Shown: positions 7,801 to 63,096 of the stretch, in pieces
Layout: each line of letters opens with the position of its first letter
Numbering within the stretch: position 1 is the first letter of the stretch
NCBI RefSeq assembly: GCF_002775205.1
Contig: NC_036453.1
Location: forward strand, 16,863,594-16,927,593
Length of the DNA stretch: 64,000 nt
Direction: 5' to 3'
Source: Xiphophorus maculatus
Lineage: Eukaryota; Chordata; Actinopteri; Cyprinodontiformes; Poeciliidae
Made by a program: the position numbers and the translations under genes
The notes under the pieces: model-generated
What the model saw: the letters and a program-made list of their open reading frames with translations, nothing else
What the model was told of the DNA's origin: nothing
Databases searched by the model: none

Positions 7801-10800
7801 CGATGCAATAAATCCCTACCCCTATTAATAATACATAAGAGCAGCATTCAAAATATTTTTTCTACCCTTCCTGCAGCTCACTGGTCAGAGCCGGTCAAGC
7901 TGAAATGTCTGTTGTTTTGATCATCTCTACTCTTATGTAAAAATGCATATTTAAAATATGGATCTAACGAAGTTTTTTTGAACTTCAGACCTGAATGAGG
8001 ATAGATGGTTGAAGGGAAGCAACTTCCCTGTCCCACCTATTAACAGTATGTCTTCTTTTGCACTGACTCATTATAACGTTGTATGTTTACCGTGTAACAC
8101 TCTGCACGCTAAACTTACAAACCTGCAGATTACCAGAGTAACGGCTGATGACTGAATGAGAACAGATTGAAACAGATGAGCTGCAGATGAAATGAGTTCT
8201 CGTGTTTCAAGTCCTCATGTTCTCTAACTAACTCCAGCTCTCTCTTTGCTTCCCTCCCTTCAGGTTGGCTTCTTTCCCAGCGAGTGTGTGGAGCTCATAA
8301 ACGATAAAGTGCCACAGTCCATGACCAACTCTGTGCCAAAACCAGGTACTGCCGCCGCTCTGCATCCATTCTGGACTGGGGGCTTCAGGGTGGGCTTGAG
8401 GTTTCCTTAATAATAATCGATCTCCATTGACAACATTATAGATCATAAACTTATCACATCAGACTGACTCAGATGTCGGAAATTTGTACAGATCGTTGTG
8501 TCGGGAACAAACGGACTCGCTGTCCTTGGCACCCCTCCCTCACCCTACCATCAGCTGCAGCTGTTTAGCATTAGATCGTCCTAGAATGGAAGAGAGCGCC
8601 ATCAAAATGCCAAACCCATTCATGATCAAAGCTCAGTGTGTTTTATAAATCTGCCTCCTACCTTCCAAATCCATGACTGTGACTCACTGTCACAACCATC
8701 CACTGGGCTTAATGGTGGGTGACTGAATCCAAACCACCACAGGCCCTCTAAGACGTGAGGGAATGATGAAATGGAAATGAAAACACTCCAAGTTTCCCAG
8801 CTAATGAGGATCTAGAAATATCATCAGAGGTTAACGGGCCTTTTAGAGGTTAGGTTATCTGGTTTTACTAACCACATCCATTGTAACTAAACCAGACTGC
8901 TGCTTTGCTTTTTAGCCGTCGCCGTGCACACCCACAGCTCCCCTCTGTCTCAAGTTGGGTTCCTGCTTGCCCACTTCTTGCTTTTAAATGTTTCAGGGCC
9001 TGTTTTGATTTTTGCATCTGTTTTGCCATAAAATAGTCACAGGTCAGTTGCATCATTTGCATACCTTAAACATTTCTTTCATTTTTCTGTTCTTTTTTTA
9101 TTTTTATTTGAGCCATAACCTTATGTCCTACATACAACAGAGTATTAGGCCCAGGCTAAGAAAAAAAATGATGAGAATGAAGTCATATTGCAAGAAATAA
9201 GTCATAATATTGGAACAAAAAAGCCTTATGAGAATTAAGTCATAATCTAATGGGAATAAAGTTATAGAAGTCGAAATAATATGAGAACAAAGTAATATTA
9301 CTAGAATAAGCTCATTATGAGAGTAAAGCCATAAGAATATGAGAAAAATGTCGTAATAATACAAGAAAAATATAATAATACAAAAAAAAATTTGTAATAA
9401 TGTTAGAAAAGAGTTGTAATACTGACAGAAAAGTCATGATACAAGAATAGTCATAACATTACCAGAAGAGTGTTGATAATGAGAAAAAGTTGTAATACGA
9501 GTAAAAACGTCATATTACCAGACTTGTCATAATTATACAAAAAAAAAGTCAAATAGGAGAATAAAGTCGTAATAATATAAAAAATAAAGTCGTGTAAACA
9601 GTATAAAGTCGTAATCATACAAGAAAAAAGTCATATGACTTATATAAAGTTGTAATATTTGAATGAAGTAGTAATTTTAGAAGTCCTGCACAAAAAATAA
9701 TTAAAGGTTAAAATAAGGAATGTTGAGCATCTTTAGTGTCGTTTTAGGACATAATCTTTTAACACGTCAGTATCAAATTATTAACAGTAGCAGAACCTTT
9801 TGAAACAACGGACCATTTCACACGAAGAACCACGAACCAGACGAACTGGTCACCTCAGTTCTTGAAGCTTTGCTCTCATTAAAACAACTTTTTTCTGGTA
9901 ATTTTATGAATCTCTTAGTCTTACCCTCCTACTCTGCTGTACCTAAATGAACAGCTTACTGCAGATTAAGTGTTAAAGCACCCTCTGGTGTGTTGAATGT
10001 TGCACTGTTTCCTCGGCGCTGCTTCACTGCGTTGTTTATAATGTTTGCTGGTTTGTTTTGAGCATGTCTTAATTCGCTGCCTTTGACTGTGACTCCTCTG
10101 CCTCAGCCTCCCCCTCCTCTGGCCTGCAGCCTGCTTCATGGAGTCTCTTCCCCCCCTGTGCGTGTTGGTATACACACCTCACCTGCCTCTCTGAATATTC
10201 ACCCTCACTCGCCTGCATATAAACACACAGTTGTTCAAAATGGCTTTATGTAAAAATGTAAATTAGATTCCAGTGCAGCTTCTTCACTTGTTAGATCCAG
10301 CTAGTTTTTCCTTCCTACACACGAAAACGTACACGGCTGGTTTGTTATCTGACTTAAAGTGCTTTTCTCCCTCTGATTCTCTCATGCCGCCATCATCCAA
10401 CCATGCATCCATCCATCCATTCATCCATCCAAATGTCTGTTGGTCCATCCGTCCATGGGATTGCATGCAGACTTGGAGATGGAGAGTGTAATGCCGGACA
10501 ATGCATGGGTGGCCGACCCGCTAAACCACTACAACCTAAGTTCAGGTAGACCAAACTCCCCTTCCAGTGTGTTGTCCCACCACTTCCTAACAGGAACACA
10601 CACACACACACAAAAGAACTAACTCCTTCCTCCTGAGTGATGTGTTTGCACTGTGTGTCTCTTAACATTCTTATTGGTTGCGGTACCTAAACTGGGTTTG
10701 GGCTCAACTCTTCACTTACGGGAAGGTTTTGTAGTCGTTTCATGTGTTTTATTTGAAGAGAACATGAAAATAAAGAGCAGCACACCCGCAACTTTGCCCT

Positions 10801-13800
10801 TTCTTTTCTTTTTCCCTGTGTTTTTTTTCTTTCTTTCTCTTTCATCACCAAATTACTCTGGATTGTGGGAAGAAGTTGAACATTTCTAAGCAGAAATGCG
10901 GAGTCTGTCTTGGATGAGGAGCAACTATTAGGACTCTTGAACTGTTTGTACAATGCACGGCTCGTGGTAGCGCTCAACTTTCTGTGATTCCTTCTGATGA
11001 AGAAATATCCTGACAGCCCAAGGAATGAAGAACTGAACTTGGTTTTGGTTTTCTTCTCTCAATCCTTTTACATCCTGAAAGTGTCCGTTTATCGTAGATC
11101 TTCCTAAGTGTGCAATCTTTGGCTTTTACACACCTGCTGATATAGCAGCCTCTGCTATATCTGCAGATCAGCTCTGCACTGGTGTGCAAAGTCCATGCAT
11201 AATATGATAAAAAAAAGTTTTTAATTCTTTGGTGTAACTCTTCAAAAGATGGGAGGAACATTTGTAAGCAGGGAACAGGACTGGAGTAAATAAGTGATGA
11301 GTGTGGATCTCAGAGAACCACACAGAGTTGCTGGTTGCGTGTGTGTGTGTGTGTGGTGGTGGGGGGTGATGAGGGCCATCTGTGTGTGTCTGATTGAAGG
11401 TGAAAGGCCGCTGCAGGAATGCCATGGTGCTAGCTCTCCACCAGTCTTGATTTATTTAATCCGTTCACAATGAAGGGCCCTGTAAACCCATCCAAGCGAC
11501 GTTAAGGCTTTGTCCTGCAGGAGTTGGAGTCTCTGTCTCCCTCTCCATGGCGACTGAAAGAGCACATTCCTGCAGGGAACCACATGCTACTGGAAAAATC
11601 TCCTCGCTTTGCCTGGACCCACTCTCCCCCGCCACCAACCAATGCTGGATGGAAACTGTTAGCGTGCAACCGTCTCAGTTAAAATCAAGACCATACAAGC
11701 TCAAGGCTGCTGATCCTTTACTCTGGATGCTTGGGTTGCTTTGCTCTGAAACCTGGGATTAGACTCTCCAGCCCCGAACAGTAGAAATAAAGCTTTTTCT
11801 CGTTTTGTTTTGTTTTACGTCAGTTCGAAACCAGAAAGTTGGGGAACTGTAGATGAAATAAATGTCCGTTAGACGTCTTTCCTCCTCACACAGAACAGTA
11901 GACCTGAAACAGACACAGAGCCGGCTCTCGTCTGCTCCCCTCTTCATCATGTGTGGGGACCAACAATCTGGGCAGCTGTGAGCATGTTGGAGCCAAGACA
12001 GCTGGTTATGTGAGGCAGAGAGGAAGGGGAACGGGGAGAGAATGTGCGAGACAGGGTTTGATTTGTCCTCCCGTTCCCAAGGATTATGGATCATTTCCTG
12101 CCGCTGTGAAACTATGCAAGCTGCTTTGTGTACTATGCTAAGCCTCAGGAAGGTTTGTTTGCAGGAACTTCATGATCAAAAACAACTTTTTGTTTGTTTC
12201 CACTTCTATTTTATTGCAGTTATATGCAAAACACAAACAAAGTTGTAAAACTGTGAATCAAATTTTTTTTAAATGCAAATCTGAATATTGATGAGTGGAC
12301 GGATTAGAGTGGTTTAGAGTTACAACTAATTAGTTAGAGGCATTAAACCTCTGACCTTATCCAGAAATCAGAGTCGGACCATTAAACATTAAGTTTGAGA
12401 AGTCCTGATGTAAACCATTCCTGCATGTCTTAGTTTATCATTTAATTTATTCGATCTAAAACACTCAGACACACATATAGTAATAATAATAGCTGTTACT
12501 ATACAGTCAAAACTTCAACTGCAAATTAAAGAAATTCAAAAGAAAGTCAAGTAAAAATAATTCACAAGTGTTGTATAAATCGCTTATACAGATCTACACT
12601 AAAGATGTTTGTTGCAAACAAGCCATTTCAACTCTTCATAGCTTTACAATAAGAAAAAATTAATAGAAAACACAGAATCAACAATTAAATCCAGACAACA
12701 GGAGAAAAAAAGATTCAAAAGTAGGTAAATCGCCATCAAGAAGGTTTCGATCAGATTTCAGGTATTAAAACTGAATGAGCTTTCACTCAGCATCTTAACT
12801 CATATTTCTTCATCCATAAACAATTTTTGAATCTTTTTAGGGAGCATATTATTTTTTTGTTTGGCATATTATTTGTGCAGACTTAAATTTTACTAGCTCA
12901 ACAAACTTTAATACTCCCCACTGGCTTAGCAAAGCATTGGTGTGTTTGTTATATAATATGTGATTTACTCTCCGTATGGCTTTTTTTTGTTGTTATTTTT
13001 GCAGAACATAAATAGGTTGGAAGTTATTTCCCCAAATCTTTACACAACATGACAAACAAGGTAGTACGGTCGACCTCTACGTCTGCCATTTGTTGGTTGA
13101 CCCTGTCCTGCTTTGTTTTGTGTTATTGTGAAGAATTATGATGCCTGGAGAAGGTTTAACTCAGTCATTCATGCGCAAACAGATTCCCTCATTATCACCA
13201 GCTTACACTGATCTGTGACAAAATGTAAAAGAAAGTAAGTAACATAAAATATGATTGTGGGGTATGAATATTCCTGCCACGATAACTTTAGGTTAAGTAA
13301 TTAACCCCGGTTCTCTGAAACATGAGTGAGGTATCTCACTATGGGACACGACCCCAGCGCCTGTCCCCCAGAAGCTCTATTACATTACGCCAGTCTTGAC
13401 TGGCCGGTAGAAGTGACGTCAGCTCCAGGAGGAGGAGCTTCCTCCTAGTATAAATGCCTGACGACACGCAAGCGATCTTCAGTCTTTTAAGCACACCTCT
13501 TCCTCGCTCCAGGCAAGGAGGGTGATCTGGTGAGATACCTCACTCATGTTTCAGAGAACCGGGGTTAATTACTTAACCTAAAGTTCTCTTTCAACATTCG
13601 TTTCGGTATCTCACTATGGGATGTGGCTACTCCCGTATTGCCAGATAAGCTTACTCGAAGACCAAAAGATGCATCCTGCAGTTATCCAAGTGTGGATCCC
13701 ACGCCCAAAACTGTGTGAGCCAGAGTTGGTGCCGTGACATCCAATCTATAGAACCTGGTGAAGGTGTGAGGAGTTGCCCAGCTGGCAGCATCACATATGT

Positions 13801-16800
13801 CCTCCAAAGGTATACCCTGAAACAGTGCCCAGGATGAGGCCATGCCACGAGTGGAATGAGCTCGTAGACCTGCAGGGGGTGCAAGGCCTTTACTCTGATA
13901 GGCCATAGCAATAGCTCCGACTACCCAATGGGAAAGGCGTTGCTTCGTTAGAGGTTTCCCTTTATGTGGTGAAGCCCATGACACAAACAGCTGCTCAGAT
14001 TTGCGAAAACCAGCCGTTTTCTTCACATAGATCTGAAGCGCTCGCACGGGGCAGAGCGTATGCAGTCTTTCATGCTCCTGAGAGGAGAACGGTGGAGGGC
14101 AAAAAGCCATCAACTCCAAAGGGCGGCATGGCAAGGCCGGGTTAAAAACCTTTGGTATATAAGCTGGATTGGTTTTCAGTAAAACCTTATGATTCTGCTC
14201 AGTAAACCGCATGCAGGAGGGGTTTACTGAAAAAGCTTGAATGTCGCTCACACGTTTGGTAGAAACCAATGCGACTAACAAGGCTGTCTTAAACGAGAGC
14301 ACTTTAAGCTCAGCCTGCTCCAAAGGTTCGAAAGGTACATGTGACAAGGCATCAAGTACCATCGGTAAATCCCATGAAGGAGTGAGGCTTTTAGACACCG
14401 GCCGGAGCCGTCGTGCACCCTTCATGAACTGGCACACCAGAGGATGTTGCCCCACTGTCTTGTCTCCAAAGCCTACATGACAAGCTGAAATAGCTGCCAA
14501 GTATACTTTGACAGTTGAAAAAGCCAAACCTTTATCCAGCAGTTCTTGTAGAAATGTCAGAATAACTGACACAGGGCTCTGTATTGCGCTAAACATGGTT
14601 TTACCGCACCAACCCTCAAATGCACGCCATTTTCCCTCATATGCGCTACGAGTCGAGACCGCTCTTGCGCTCTGAATCGTGTCAATGACGTTCTGGGGAA
14701 GCCCACTGGCTGCCAGATTCACCCTTTCACAAGCCAGGCCCATAGAGCTAGGCGTTCCGGATGAGGATGAAATAGTTCTCCACGTGCCTGTGTTAGGAGA
14801 TCCCTGCGGAGAGGGAGCTGCCACGGCTCGCCCTGCAGTGACTGGAAAATTTCTGCTACCCAGTGCTTCCCTGGCCAACGGGGAGCTACCAGGATGAGTG
14901 AATGTTTCCTCTCTCGCACCCTGGCGAGGGTAGGAATAATCAGTTCCAGTGGTGGAAAAGCGTACAGGAGAACCGGGGGCCACTCGTGTGCTAGAGCATC
15001 CAGGCCCAACGGAGCACCTTCCTCGGTCAGGGAGAAAAAACTCGGACATTGAGTGTTTTCCTCTGATGCAAAGAGGTCTACCTCCGCCTGACCATACCGC
15101 TGCCATATTTGGGTTACAACCCCGCTGTGGAGTCTCCACTCCTTGTAGCGGGGATTGCCTCTCGACAGCAGATCTGCACCCCTGTTCATCACCCCTGGCA
15201 CATGAGTGGCTCTCAGTGACAGAAGGCGTGAGCTGGTCCAGACTATCAGTCTGTGTGCTAGCATGTGTAAATGATGTGAGCGCAGGCCTCCCTGCCTGTT
15301 GATGTATGCAACCACCGTTGTATTGTCTGTTCTGACCAAAACATGGTGCCCTCTGATAGAGGGCAGAAAATGTCTCAGAGCTAGTAGAACAGCTTGGAGC
15401 TCCAGACAGTTTATGTGAGCTGTCCGTGTTTGTGAGCTCCAGACACCGTTTACCATCATGCCCTCGTGTGTGGCTCCCCAACCAATTAACGAGGCATCCG
15501 TAGTAACAACTTTCCGTGTTAGGATGGTTCCCATGGCAACGCCGGTGTTCAGGAAAGCGGTGTGTTTCCACGGACTCAGAGCGCGTGCGCATGTCCCAGA
15601 AACGATCACCTTCCGGTGGGCATGGCGTATTAGGCTCAAATTGAGCGATGCTACCCACCGTTGAAACGGTCGCATGTGCAGACGGCCGAACGTGATGACC
15701 GACAGTGCTGACGCCATCAGACCAAGCAGCCTGTGACACAGTCTGAATTTCACGAGTGCGCCTCTGCGAAAAACTGCCAGACAAGCCTGGAAGGCTTTCA
15801 GTCGTTCTGCTGAGAGGCGTGCTCTGAACTCCTCTGAATTCAGGGACATCCCGATGAAGGTTATTGTTTGTACTGGGGTTAGGATACTCTTCTCCCAGTT
15901 TATTGTGAAACCCAGAGCCGCCAGATGTGATATCAGCATCGTGGCGTGTGCCATAAGTTCCACCGGAGACTGAGCTGCAATCAGCCAGTCGTCTATATAC
16001 GTAGCCAGACGTATTCCCTTTTCCCTCAGAGGTGCGACTGCAGCCTCGGTGCATTTCACAAACACGCGTGGGCTCAGTGAGAGGCCAAAGGGAAGTACGA
16101 GATATTCGTACATCTTCCCCTGAAAGGCAAATCTGAGGTATTTTCTGTGAGGGGGGTATATAGGGATGTGAAAATATGCGTCTTTCAAGTCTACGGAGAT
16201 GAACCAATCTCCTCGACGCACAAACCGTATCAGAGCTGCGTGTGTCAGCATCCTGAACGTATACCGTCTCAGATATGCGTTCAGAGCTCGCAGATCTAAT
16301 ATCGGCCGCAGACCCCCGCCTTTTTTCGGTACGAGAAAATATCTGGAGTAAAAGCCGTCCCTGCTGTGCTCCTGCGGAACCAGCCGAATGGCGTTTTTGT
16401 TCTGCAGAGATATTATTTCCCCCTGCAAAATGCGTGCGTGTTCTCCCCGGGCATATGACTGTACTATACCTTTGAAACGGGGAGGAGCTGTTCCAAACTG
16501 GAGCCTGTATCCTCTGGATACAGTCTTTATCACCCAATTTGATGCCCCGCACGCTCGCCACAGCTGGACTTTTCTCGCTAATGGGCTGGGAAGTGCTTCT
16601 GTGAAAGCATTGTTCCGTGCCGGTTGAGCAAGCTGTAGCTGCTGTCGGTCTGCTGTCTCTTTCAGAGACAAAGCTGCCGAGTACGCCAAAGGTGGGGCAA
16701 GAGCTCCCCCTGTTGGCCCCATGTGCAGCCGCACGGCCACGTTCTGTCCTAATGTCATTTTCATTATATTTCTTTGTTTTGGCTGCGCCCTCGGTTCCTG

Positions 16801-19800
16801 ACCTGGATGCGCGCCTGGGAACAATTTTATTGAGTTTGTGGTGAAGGGAGATATTTGTGTTTTCAAACACTGGTGTGTGTTTGTGCACTGGTGTGTGCTT
16901 TCTGGCCACAGCTCTGGCTCCACTGAGCTCTGGCCATGTGTAAGCTTTCTCCTCTTCGTTCGGCTCTGAACTGCGAGCTCCAACGCTGGCTCTGCAGGCC
17001 GTTTGAATTGCCCTGAACGTGGCTTCACAAACTCGAACTGGGACAGAACGTTTTCCGGTGGCGGGGGAACAGGTGTCTGGCAGTGCCTGCTCTCCCACCC
17101 CGGGGCGAGCTGCCTAGGTAGCCCGCCTCTTTTTCTTCGCGCTAGCGGTGGCCGGAGGTTTGGTTCCCGAAGTCACCGGTGGCGTGAAGGGCTTTCTTCC
17201 CCAGGCACCCTTGAGCTCGATCTGCTTTCCCTGGCTTTGGTCCGCCGACTGCTGCTGAGGGTGGCGTTTAGGGATGCGGTAGCCCGGTCGGGTTGTCGCC
17301 TGAGCGAACGTTTGACGAGGTGCCGCAGAGAGAGGAGGCTGCGCTCTTCTGGGCAGACAGAGTTGCAGCGCTTCACCTTCTTTCTTTTTCTCCTCGCAGC
17401 GTTTTTGCATTGCTGCAACGGTGGGGCCGAATAAGCCCTTCGGGTCCACCGGCGTGTCGAGGAGTTGATTTTTCTCTCTTTGAGAGAGGCTGGACAGATT
17501 CAACCATCTGGCTCTTTCCTGAGTGACCATCAGAGCCATTGCTCGCCCTGAGGCCTGGACAGCGTTTCTGTGGAGACGGAGGCAGAGGTCTGTCACCACG
17601 CATAACTCGTCCCACAGATCTGCGGTTGCTGCACCCGCCATCTGCTCCTGCAGTTCTGCTTGATAAGCGAGGAGGAGAGAGGAGGCGTTCAGGGCTTTAA
17701 CCGATGCTGCCACTGCCTTGTAGCTTTTTTCGTTTAAAGCTGACTGAAACGAATCGGCCTTGAACGGGAGGGTTGGTCCTGCCGCTGTCATGGTCGATTT
17801 CTGTGAGGGGTGCAGGTGAAATGCTAGCTGAGGTTCAACAGGAGGCAGGCGGAAAAAACCGCTGTCCTCCACGCCGGTCCAGTCCAGCGCCGACCCTCCC
17901 AGAACGGGGTTTTTGGCGGTGAGCGGATTACTCCAGGACCGGGTTGCTTCCTCGAGGCACTCCGGGAAAACCGGCAGCAGCTGTCTGGTGGAAGATTTGG
18001 CTTTTGGAAGCCGTTTCCCCTCATACCGAGATGTGGTGGTCTCGGCCGGGGTTTCCGGCCATTCAATGCCCAGCTTTGCAGCTGCTCTTCTGCAGACGTC
18101 GTGGAGGTCCGATGCAGTCGGGTTTGGAGGGCCGCTGTAGCGGGTTTCACCAGTTTCCGTGGGCTTTGCAGCCAAAGGGATAGAGAACGTCTCGCCGTCC
18201 TGCTCGTAGTCGTCAGACCCGAGACTGACGGATTCCACCTCGGAGTCAGATTCTGCACCCGCAAAATCACTGAAAACCGGGAGGTCGGCTCCATCTTCCT
18301 CCAGATCAAGAAGTGGTGCGACAGCATCAAGCTGGTCACCCCAACTGGCTTGAGCTAAAGGGAGCTCTCCCTCATCGGTCGAGGCAAGAACCGGTGGAGG
18401 GGGATTGGATACCCCCAGCACAGGGTCCGCCTCCGACAAACTAGCTTGGCGTGCTAGCCTGCGTCGACGAGTTTTAATAGAGAGCCGTGCACAATGTTCA
18501 CACCCCGCTGGTGACGCTAACCCGTCCTGGGCATGTTGCGGCCCCAGACACGAAGCGCAGACAGAATGGGTATCTGCCCCAGCAATGAGGTTGCCACACG
18601 TGCAGGTTTTAGTCGGTAGTTTGGTCCTGTCCATTGCGGGTACGGGTCCAAGCTACGTGACTATCAGCTTCGATTAAAATCAAAGCCAAAGGTCGCAGCT
18701 AGTTTGGAGACTAGCTGCAGCTGCTGCTGTTTGGTGACAGACCAGCGGTAGAAAAACTCAGAACAACCAAGCACAGCTACCGAGAAGCGTTCGGCGACCG
18801 AGTTGTTAGCTCGCTCTGCGAACAGTTAAGCTAGCCCAATAGTTACCGTGCTAGCCGTCTGAGAGTTGCTTCTGGGAGCGAGAAGAGGTGTTAGACTGAA
18901 GATCGCTTGCGTGTCGTCAGGCATTTATACTAGGAGGAAGCTCCTCCTCCTGGAGCTGACGTCACTTCTACCGGCCAGTCAAGACTGGCGTAATGTAATA
19001 GAGCTTCTGGGGGACAGGCGCTGGGGTCGTGTCCCATAGTGAGATACCGAAACGAATGTTGAAAGAGAACAAATTTTGCTGGGCGATAAATTGTTCCAGA
19101 AGTTTTTGCGATAAAAGGTAATATTGTTGTTTTGAGACCATTGTTCAGTAATATAATGGTGATGGCAAAATAATCATAATAATATTATTATATTATAATA
19201 TATAATATTATTATAATAAAATAATAATTCAAGAACGCATTCTAAAAGATCTGTAAACTTTAAATTCTAATGAACATTTAACACTGGAACTGGAAGACAT
19301 TAAATATTCAAAATAAATAAAACAACTAAAATTAACTTTGAAGTCTGTGTAAACAAAACTGTCCTTCAAAATAAGAGCTAGTTGAGACCAAATCACCAAA
19401 CTTAAGACTTATCATCCAGTTTTGGTAGAATGAGAGAAAAAAGACATAAATGATAAATCACGCCAATGGAAACTATTGAGTTTGTTTGAATTTATCATGG
19501 GATTAATTGATTTATTGCTTATTGTGACAGGCCTAGGTATGAATACTTTTGCAAGCCACTCTGCTAACAAGTCAGGCGTTGTTACGAACAAGTGACTGTT
19601 GAACTATTGCTTGTTTCACAGTGGGTGAATCATTTCAATTACTGCAGCCATGTAAAAAAGAAACAAAGCATGCATCAGTTTTAAGGTTTTATATATCAGG
19701 TCATAAAGTGTTGACACAATTTATTACGTCATAATATGCTGTGTGGTTTCGTTCATTTCACTCACATTTTAGGACCTTATTAGGTAAGTTTTATGTTCTA

Positions 19801-25800: not shown

Positions 25801-28800
25801 CTAATCGTTGTTGCTGCCTGAGTAAACAGCTGGCACCTTCTTGTTCTCTTTGTGATTTCCACATACACCTCACTAATCCTCAAACTAGCAATAACCTCAT
25901 TAGCAGCTTCCACACACTGTTGTTTTCTGTAGTTTACAGGGAAGTTGAGCTATCAGATTCCAGTTTAAAAAAATGCAGATAACGCTTGTGTTCTTACGCT
26001 AACTTAAAGCTTCCAGACTAAGATTAAGAGTAAATGCAAACTTTACTTACACAAAGTCCTGTTTATCTGAACTCAGTGAAGCCCCACATCGCCTTGCAGC
26101 AGACAGCAAGAGGAACTCCCACAATAGTCGACTTTTACGTGATTAGATTCCTCTTTGAAATGACAGCACAAGCAATTACTCAGGTTTTCGGTACCACAGC
26201 AGTTTTTCTATTAAGACAGGAAATGGTGGCCAAAACTTATACAACAGTTTCAGAATTACTTAGAATGAACATGTAAATTAATATCTTCCAGAATCCAGAT
26301 GTAATGCTTTAAAAGAATAGTGGAATAACAAGACGGGGTGATATCTGATATGAATGTCCTCTCTGAAGCAGTGGCCGTGATAGAGAGCAGAAACGGAGCC
26401 GGTGGCAAGTTACGCTGTATAGAACGCTCAGCCCAAAATGACTGTAGTTCTGGGGTCAAACAAACAGAACCAGAGTTTGCTACTGTCCTCTTACTGGTGG
26501 CTAACTGGAAGATTTTGAAACTGTCTTGAGAAGTGGACTTCTTTTTTGTTTGCTTCTCCAATTGATGAACTTGATAGCCTTTCCCACATTTCTCCAGAGA
26601 CGAAGACCGAGCTCACGACGTTCCTCCAACGGGCTATCTGGTTTTCAGGAAGGTGTTCTGTGTTGAAGGGGCGAGGACGATGCTGCTGCTGAATGTGGAA
26701 GATTCCTTTGTTGTTGCCTGGGAGGCGGGATCCGAGACCGCACACGCATAAAGAGCGACTTAGCATGAGAATGGAAACTCAAACACACAATAGGGCAGCT
26801 TTGACCAGTTTGGGGTTTCATTCTCCTGCATGGATTAATGTGAGAGTCTGTGTACAGCCCACAGTAAACAAGTATTCTGATCACCCAACGTGTCTTTTTC
26901 TGTCTTCCTTCCTGTCTCAGTATCTAAGAAGCACGGGAAACTGATCACCTTCTTGCGCTCCTTCATGAAGTCCAGGCCCACCAAGCAAAAGCTAAAGCAG
27001 CGAGGGATCCTCCGGGAAAGGGTGTTTGGTTGTGACCTGGGAGAACACCTCCTCAACTCAGGACATGACGGTAATGCGTTTTTAATTGAACACTTCCAGC
27101 TTTTGCATTTAAATGAGTATATCTCTGCTTGGGTTAACACAGAGACACTGAGTGAATCAGCAGAGAGTATCCGTTCAGCTTTAAGCTAAGAGTTTGGGTT
27201 AAGGGAGGCTTAACTGCGCAAAAATGCTCCCCGGGCATGGAGATGTTTACTTGCAGTTAATATAATACACATCATCTAAGTACACATCGGCTTCCCCGTC
27301 TCTTTCTGCTTCAGGAGAATCAATATTTACATTCATTGGGCACAGACTGTTTTCCTCAGGTGAGCCGAGGAGCAAAATGGAGTCCAGACTCTACTCCCAT
27401 CATCAGAGCCTGGTTTAGGTTTACTTTAACCTAAATTTAGTTTGTTTTGTCTTTCCAAATTAGGGCTGAAACAATTCCTCAAATTAATTGTGACTAATTC
27501 ATTATTAAAATAATCATCAACTAATTTATTAATCAATTAATCGTTAACTGGAGTAGACTCAAAAAAGGCCATTTGCTAAAAAAGCAACACACTCACAGGA
27601 GTAATTAAGCCAAAACTGTACAAATATGTATTTACTTTGCATGTAAGATTAAAAACAAACTTTCTTTGTAAATATGTTCTACCAAAAACTCATCAGTTGG
27701 CATAGTTTTAGCCTCATCTGGTTCAAATTCTGTTAAATCATCTCATATTAAGCACCAATTATCAATTGGTTAATCTGAAACATAAACAGATCAGTCCTAC
27801 GCTGTGTTGATAAGTCCAGAAGAAAGAGCTGAGCTCTCACATGTTAGAAGTAATTATTTAGGAGCATGTTTGTGATTGTACTTCATTTTTGGCAGTAAAA
27901 TTTTGGGGGTTTTTTGTGTAAAAAGAAGGAATTGAATTATTTGTTTTGCATCTTTTAATGCATTTACCCTCCATGTTGCACCTAAACCTGCTGTAAAAGC
28001 TGTGCAAGAGTAACGCAGCCCAAAGACCACAAAAGGAGTCTAAAGTGTTTCTCAAACGTCCCAAATTCCAAAACAAGTCTTGATTCACCAGAACCTTTCC
28101 CAACAACCCACCGCACCCAGAAGAACCTGCTTCTGCTGCCCTACTGCCAAACACCTCAGAGCTGTTGTGTTTTTGATTTTCTATATTTTGTTGTTGTCAT
28201 CGTCTTTGGGCAAATGAGCTGAGTCCATCCAGTCTCTGAAGAAACTCTTCCTGGTTTCATGTTTGCTCTGCGGCTGTATGGAGTTAATCAGAACAGCTGC
28301 TCCCCTCAACATCTCATTCTGTCTTCCTCTGACTGGTGTGTGTTGGTGGGAGGTCTGGAAACTCTGCTGCACACATACACACTCTTACTTTGTCTTCTAT
28401 AAACAGTGAGCACATGTAAAAAATGTCTGTATGATTCATAGTAGCTGAAGCAGAACGGAGGAACTTTGTTAAAGGTATTTTTGTTCCCGGTATGCAGTCA
28501 CACACGCTTTAACGCTGTGTGTGTGTTGGATTGTCTCAGTCACAGGCGTCTTATCTTACCATGGAAACATGTAACATTACATTACATGAGGATATTTTTT
28601 ATTTAAAAAGTGCTCCCCCCTTTTCTTTTCAAAGTGCGTTACGTTAAGAGAGCCTGCAGACATTTTCCAGCAGCCTGACGATTCCCTACTCAACCTTCAA
28701 CTGCAGGGCTCTCTGTTCATGGAACTGTAGTGCTCAAATCAGACAAAACTGATTGGAAATAGATGACATGCTGGTCTTCTATTCTGTGTTGGCAGTACCC

Positions 28801-45500: not shown

Positions 45501-47885
<2,385 letters not shown>

Positions 47886-52484: not shown

Positions 52485-54346
<1,862 letters not shown>

Positions 54347-62019: not shown

Positions 62020-62448
62020 ATCAGGAAACCCGTCTGTCTGTCTGTCTGTCTATATATCTATATATATAGATGTAGATATGTAGACATGTACATAGATATC
62101 TATATCTATTTACATGTAGAGAGAGATCTATATATCTATATAGATATATATCTATACTATATATGTATAAATATATGAGAGATTTATATATGTATAGAGA
62201 GACATATCTCTCTACTCTCTATACATAGACATATATTTATCTATATATCTATATATATAATATACATATATCTACATATCTATCTATCGATCGATCGATA
62301 GATATAGATATCTATATACATGTCTACATATCTACATCTACTGTATATATCTACAACTCTCTACATATAGAGGGGTAGATTTATAGATATTTAGATTGAT
62401 ATCATATGTAGATATATATATAGATTTATATATATTTATAGACAGAGA

Positions 62449-62507
<59 letters not shown>

Positions 62508-62769
62508 TGTATATATATATGTAGAGAGAGAGAAATTTAGATATAGATATCTATCTTATCTATCTTTATCTGTTTATATAGATAAATTTAGATTTAGATA
62601 TTTATATCTTGCCCATATATATGAGAGAGATATCTATATCCATGTCTACATATCAACATCTATATATCTACATCTCTCCCTATAAATATAGAGAGGGGTA
62701 GATTTATAGATATTTAGATTGATATCCTATGTAGATATATATAGATTTATATATATTTATAGACAGAGA

Positions 62770-62817
<48 letters not shown>

Positions 62818-63012
62818 TATAGTATAGATATATATCTATACTATATATATGTATATATGAGAGAGAGATTTATATATGTTTAGAGAGACATATCTCTCTA
62901 CTCTTTATACAGAGACATGTATATCTATATATATATAGATATATCTACATATGTAGATATCTATATATCTATATCTATCTATATATATATCTATATATCT
63001 ATATCTATCTAT

Positions 63013-63096
<84 letters not shown>

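Follow-up and report, generated by a model that had tools for sequence, protein, structure and literature searches.

How a mobile element produces a recombinase whose reading frame opens far upstream of any start codon is the question raised by an insertion in a 64,000-nucleotide stretch of the Xiphophorus maculatus genome (contig NC_036453.1, 16,863,594 to 16,927,593 of the forward strand; hereafter the window, whose own positions are used throughout). The element, 5,787 bp on the minus strand (13284..19070), lies in an intron of arhgap32 and is almost certainly a DIRS1-like retrotransposon. Its frames, given from stop to stop with the first Met listed separately, are all on the minus strand: gag of 512 amino acids (17114..18652, Met at residue 7), for which homologous Gag stretches occur in relatives; pol of 817 amino acids (14719..17172, Met at 137), shifted by +1 relative to gag and covering reverse transcriptase (RT), RNase H and a putative Dam-like methyltransferase; and a tyrosine recombinase (YR) frame of 1143 amino acids (13682..17113, Met at 354). 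The gag frame is closed by a UAG (17114..17116), directly after which the YR frame resumes in the same frame. The recombinase domain comprises only YR residues 791-1143 (13682..14743), and the 790 codons before it (14744..17113) lie entirely inside pol and are free of stops. No AUG stands close to the start of the pol or YR frame. A first-pass annotation made from the letters alone had described all three open reading frames (ORFs) as open, which the stop-to-stop frames bear out; the overlapping YR frame, in our view the most informative feature of the locus, was absent from it.

The lack of stops in the part of the YR frame that overlies pol is non-random. When the synonymous codons of pol were permuted, with the protein and codon usage kept, 25.0 ± 3.9 stops were expected in the 797 codons of overlap (minimum 10 in 2,000 permutations), and none is present. 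Across the whole of pol, the only stop in this frame is the gag UAG, compared with 25.7 ± 4.0 expected (minimum 12 in 5,000 permutations), and the first 353 YR codons, which precede the first Met, contain no stop against 12.1 ± 2.9 expected, none of 5,000 permutations being stop-free. Control sequences read in the same relative frame contained stops at about the expected number (gag, 20 vs 23.0; YR domain, 22 vs 19.2; arhgap32 exons, 38 vs 40.2 and 13 vs 12.8), and among the controls only the YR domain, read in the other relative frame, showed a slight shortage (12 vs 16.8, P 0.04). The open overlap could be an untranslated by-product of codon or dinucleotide usage in pol, since codon-boundary T-A steps fall below the shuffled number in pol (16 vs 35.5), gag (11 vs 19.5) and the last arhgap32 exon (20 vs 35.8) alike, and since amino-acid conservation in the overlap is mostly near simulation, as described below. 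However, when the comparison was conditioned on the codon-boundary dinucleotide, the stop-making codons of pol were found after T in 0 of 15 and 0 of 36 cases. After other bases, the respective counts were 97 of 178 and 51 of 187 (P 1.6e-5 and 3.3e-5), and no comparable shortage was seen in gag, the YR domain or an arhgap32 exon. Furthermore, in its other shifted sense frame pol contains 63 stops, above the 55.1 expected. A by-product of this kind is therefore very improbable, and the pattern of stops indicates that the overlap frame is very probably translated.

Because 353 stop-free codons precede the first Met, ribosomes would be expected to enter the YR frame upstream of its AUGs. We tentatively favor, with a little less than even confidence, a reading in which the recombinase arises by C-terminal extension of Gag via an overprinted linker. 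This reading is inferred from the position of gag and YR in one frame across a single UAG, together with a family of proteins in which the two are joined without a stop. Among 236 retrieved proteins (120 ARHGAP32 proteins being excluded), P0313 (a cluster of 221), P0314, P0315 and P0317 pass from Gag via the overlap to YR with neither a pol stretch nor a stop on the way, although the start of P0315 resembles Gag read out of frame. Like the window element, the P0313 family has Gag followed by the overlap frame and then YR, all in a single frame; it possesses no Gag-YR stop, and its YR domain is 48% identical. Copies of this family are concordant over the Gag-YR junction and differ in deletions or shifts elsewhere; because the copies agree at the junction, they appear to be real DNA frames and not the outcome of predicted splicing.

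In the proposed mechanism, the zero frame of the RNA would read Gag, UAG, a probably disordered linker of 790 residues and the recombinase. Some ribosomes may pass or bypass the UAG, so that the recombinase would be attached to Gag, and pol would be reached by a +1 frame change, perhaps at the A-rich run AAGAAAAAG (17129..17137, minus strand) in the gag/pol overlap, which is a candidate site from its sequence. The disordered tether could then bring the recombinase into the Gag particle, alongside the cDNA to be integrated. In the structure model, the 790-residue stretch has block means of pLDDT of 25-42 and is probably disordered, with the caveat that a shallow alignment can give the same result. 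Production of YR solely from Met791, or solely from a spliced mRNA, was rejected by an argument from openness, as neither requires 790 open codons.

Several observations weigh against a Gag-linked recombinase. The YR domain was found in 125 of the 236 proteins, and 33 of these, from sources that include Carassius, Megalobrama, Salarias, Misgurnus, Garra, Nothobranchius, Sphaeramia and Danio, carry at least 450 overlap-frame residues without a pol stretch, in a set of database proteins that is biased towards open frames. All 33 have Met as the first residue, so that other entries are possible, and 30 lack a Gag stretch as retrieved. Of the YR proteins with a Gag stretch (n = 22), 13 also contain pol stretches and hence mixed frames, the other nine being without them. 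The standing of P0313-P0317 as uninterrupted DNA frames is itself presumed. In the window copy, the recombinase domain has Met791 at its very beginning, and a free enzyme could be initiated there; this residue is Met in 7 of the 27 chosen relatives in alignment A3 and in 5 of 27 in alignment A2 (each alignment comprises 28 rows, with the window copy). From the gag UAG onward, the RNA has a better fold than its shuffled versions (z -3.06, equalled by 2 of 200 shuffles), a result that follows a look at four lengths and lends weak support. Finally, the amino-acid identity of the overlap with 13 relatives is 25-47% (25-32% in 12 of them), compared with means of 22-33% in a random-codon simulation based on 14 proteins with pol 56-83% identical, in which stops were allowed and pol and overlap came from different proteins. 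Twelve of the 13 relatives are at or slightly above simulation, and P0241, at 47%, exceeds every simulation (maximum 38%) and may be too closely related for its codons to have saturated. The lack of clear amino-acid constraint in the 790-residue stretch would nevertheless fit the expectation, because a tether need only stay open.

The initial Met residues and missing Gag stretches of these relatives could be explained by entry of ribosomes elsewhere, namely by near-cognate reinitiation after the gag stop, by an internal start at Met354 or by a frame change from pol, and we regard such an entry as quite possible, though rather doubtful. The first residue of P0258, P0273, P0274 and P0349 corresponds to residue 354, which is Met in 17 of the 27 chosen relatives. 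On the other hand, a start at Met354 leaves the 353 Met-free and stop-free codons before it unexplained, and a frame change from pol accounts for openness only downstream of the change. It is unlikely that Gag and YR were once continuous, as in P0313, P0314, P0315 and P0317, and that the UAG is a disabling mutation, which would make the window copy less than fully intact: no other break was seen in this copy, and a separate gag ORF belongs to the published descriptions of DIRS elements (PMC3266345, PMC9210276). With the reservations given above, readthrough from Gag in the zero frame, with pol in the +1 frame, is the simplest model.

The catalytic residues that the first-pass annotation had listed for RT, RNase H and the recombinase are present and conserved. 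RT (PF00078, E 1.5e-25) and RNase H (PF13456, E 1.9e-4) were matched in pol, where D328, D394 and D395 (YIDD) of RT and D559, E591, D616 and D667 of RNase H are invariant in all 14 aligned rows, that is, the window copy and 13 relatives chosen from 120 among the matches listed. The Dam-like methyltransferase match (PF05869, E 0.0059) falls below the cut-off; the region is rich in invariant residues across the 14 rows, and PF05869 is annotated (precomputed) in two relatives, P0340 and P0344. In YR, R954, K988, W1112 and Y1122 are found in 28 of 28 rows of alignment A3 and H1086 and R1089 in 27 of 28 with one gap, while all six residues are found in every row of alignment A2. The recombinase has a Cre-like fold in the structure model, and a sequence comparison of the YR frame with the PDB at E up to 1 gave no relative. 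Gag matched no Pfam family above the cut-off, a scan of the window with Rfam returned no family, and no protease or integrase family was found in the element at E up to 1. A Ty3/gypsy long terminal repeat (LTR) retrotransposon was accordingly rejected, there being no direct LTRs and no protease or DDE integrase family at that threshold. A PAT/Ngaro element was rejected as well, because split direct repeats were not found and the long repeats are inverted; of six short direct-repeat families (16-27 nt), the sole exact one, of 17 bp, is part of the terminal and internal repeats described next.

The repeat anatomy was re-derived and supports a complete element with the boundaries 13284-19070 that had been claimed for it; its coding strand opens and closes with GTT. 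In coding sense, the 5' terminus (18893..19070) consists of a conserved inverted terminal repeat (ITR) of 156 bp (18893-19048) and a 22-bp outer part (19049-19070), and the 3' terminus (13284..13485) of the conserved ITR (13330-13485) and a 46-bp outer part or extension (13284-13329). The two ITRs are identical at 156 of 156 positions, the match ending exactly at these limits both ways. The internal complementary region (ICR, 13530..13621, minus strand) comprises a 56-nt half complementary to the left outer end (13284-13339, the 3' end; 56/56) and a 39-nt half complementary to the right outer end (19032-19070, the 5' end; 39/39); the exact matches reported earlier for ITRs and ICR are thus confirmed. 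Both ICR halves share the circular junction AAC (13583..13585, minus strand; GTT on the plus strand), AAC is present at both element ends, and the empty site is predicted to hold a single AAC.

This organization is close to that of GaDIRS1 and GaDIRS2 of Gasterosteus and TnDIRS1a of Tetraodon as tabulated (ITR 144-148 bp, ICR 36-46 + 56-57, 5,322-5,931 bp, AAC; PMC3266345 Table 3), the window element having an ITR of 156 bp, an ICR of 39 + 56, AAC and 5,787 bp. By description, all four share the GTT start and a long ORF overlap, and the GTT end is common to the window element and both Gasterosteus elements, whereas TnDIRS1a ends with GAT. DIRS-1 of Dictyostelium is likewise described with ITRs, an ICR and overlapping ORFs. 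The fish DIRS pol proteins of Cyprinodon tularosa (LOC119787801 and LOC119794765; 82 and 81% identity over 84 and 83% of the window pol) and Girardinichthys multiradiatus (LOC124857922; 80% over 82%) probably belong to families other than that of the window element. From DIRS-1 and the anatomy of the present copy, a sense RNA lacking parts of the ITRs would start in the 5' ITR and be copied by RT, with the ICR and repeats restoring the missing ends; the circle would close on AAC, and the recombinase would integrate it at a host AAC with no target duplication.

As claimed before, the element lies in an intron of arhgap32; it is antisense to the gene, and the intron measures 16.4 kb, because the exons on either side (10470..10544 and 26917..27069, plus strand, located by tblastn with P0121-P0123) are contiguous in the protein, covering P0121 residues 328-352 and 352-402; RhoGAP exons in the window match the RICS/ARHGAP32 structure 3iug, and identity in the long C-terminal exon is 95% with the protein of Poecilia reticulata, 86% with that of Anableps and 84% with that of Fundulus, values that point to a probable poeciliid host. 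By motif scan, the 5' ITR contains TATAAA at 18924..18929 (minus strand), from which a sense RNA start near 18898-18904, by the inner edge of this ITR, would be expected. A second TATAAA in the 3' ITR (13449..13454, plus strand) points in the arhgap32 sense direction as a possible antisense promoter, which could start transcripts towards the exons from 26917 on. Promoter activity in either direction has been demonstrated for the ITRs of DIRS-1 (PMC5633606, PMC4482531), and expression is driven by both of them (PMC4482531).

The insertion is probably recent, as the first-pass annotation had held, although too much weight had been placed on the identity of the repeats; the activity that it raised as a possibility is conceivable. 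The conserved part of the ITR is described as strictly complementary in DIRS1-like elements (PMC3266345), so that a perfect match between the repeats is by itself a less telling sign of youth; the identity of the ICR and the outer ends adds to that evidence. None of 224 site pairs differ (156 in the ITRs, and 22 + 46 between the ends and the ICR), which gives a 95% upper bound on divergence of 1.3% and, if the rate is taken to be 1e-8 to 5e-9 per site per year, an age below about 0.7-1.3 million years. If transcription from the TATA at 18929-18924 begins barely within the 5' ITR, close to its inner edge, each cycle would have to restore most of this ITR from another source, and ITR identity could therefore serve as a clock. 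The published sense RNA of DIRS-1 differs from this in that most of the right repeat, but only a small part of the left, is missing from it (PMC5633606). An old, fixed insertion with repeats homogenized by gene conversion would be consistent with the strict complementarity described in other elements; with an ICR matching both outer ends without difference and three long unbroken frames, it is highly unlikely. A complete, recently inserted DIRS1-like element with a zero-frame Gag-UAG-linker-recombinase arrangement is, taken as a whole, a likely best explanation.

A comparison of the joined flanks with the window gave no second copy or empty site within it. The empty-site pattern of 26 bases had no matches in viral contigs, and a 19-base pattern gave one match in genome contigs, in a bacterial MAG (L001), which was taken as chance; two pol scans of viral contigs confirmed no DNA of relatives. 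The right flank of the element (19071-19230) is AT-rich and gives the impression of an older interspersed repeat, with no second copy in the window. Elsewhere in the window, a core-histone gene exon that is H3-like by eye (46268-46855, plus strand; PF00125, E 4.2e-20) and an Otx/Crx-type homeobox gene (52485-53623, minus strand; PF03529, E 3.6e-30; homeodomain, E 4e-13) were found, a 149-bp GA microsatellite (53137-53285) lying between parts of the latter, as well as a degenerate TA-rich array of about 1 kb (62051-63067).

As a mobile element, the insertion is one more intact fish DIRS of an already known type, and intact-looking vertebrate copies such as those of Xenopus DIRS-37_XT have been reported (PMC9210276). 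Long pol/YR overlap, termed 'considerable overlap', is described in half of 28 elements, for which the available part of that survey gives no function beside the description (PMC3266345). No title or opening abstract text searched mentioned Gag-YR readthrough in DIRS, DIRS papers in subscription journals being probably outside the scope of the search. It is conceivable, though we hold it at somewhat under even confidence, that in fish DIRS elements the recombinase is delivered as the C-terminal end of Gag, by readthrough or, in the sister family, by an uninterrupted frame, with pol in a shifted frame. An overlap that, as the permutations indicate, is maintained without stops even upstream of its first AUG, and that is in frame with Gag, suggests a concrete, testable answer to how DIRS elements may make and package their recombinase.

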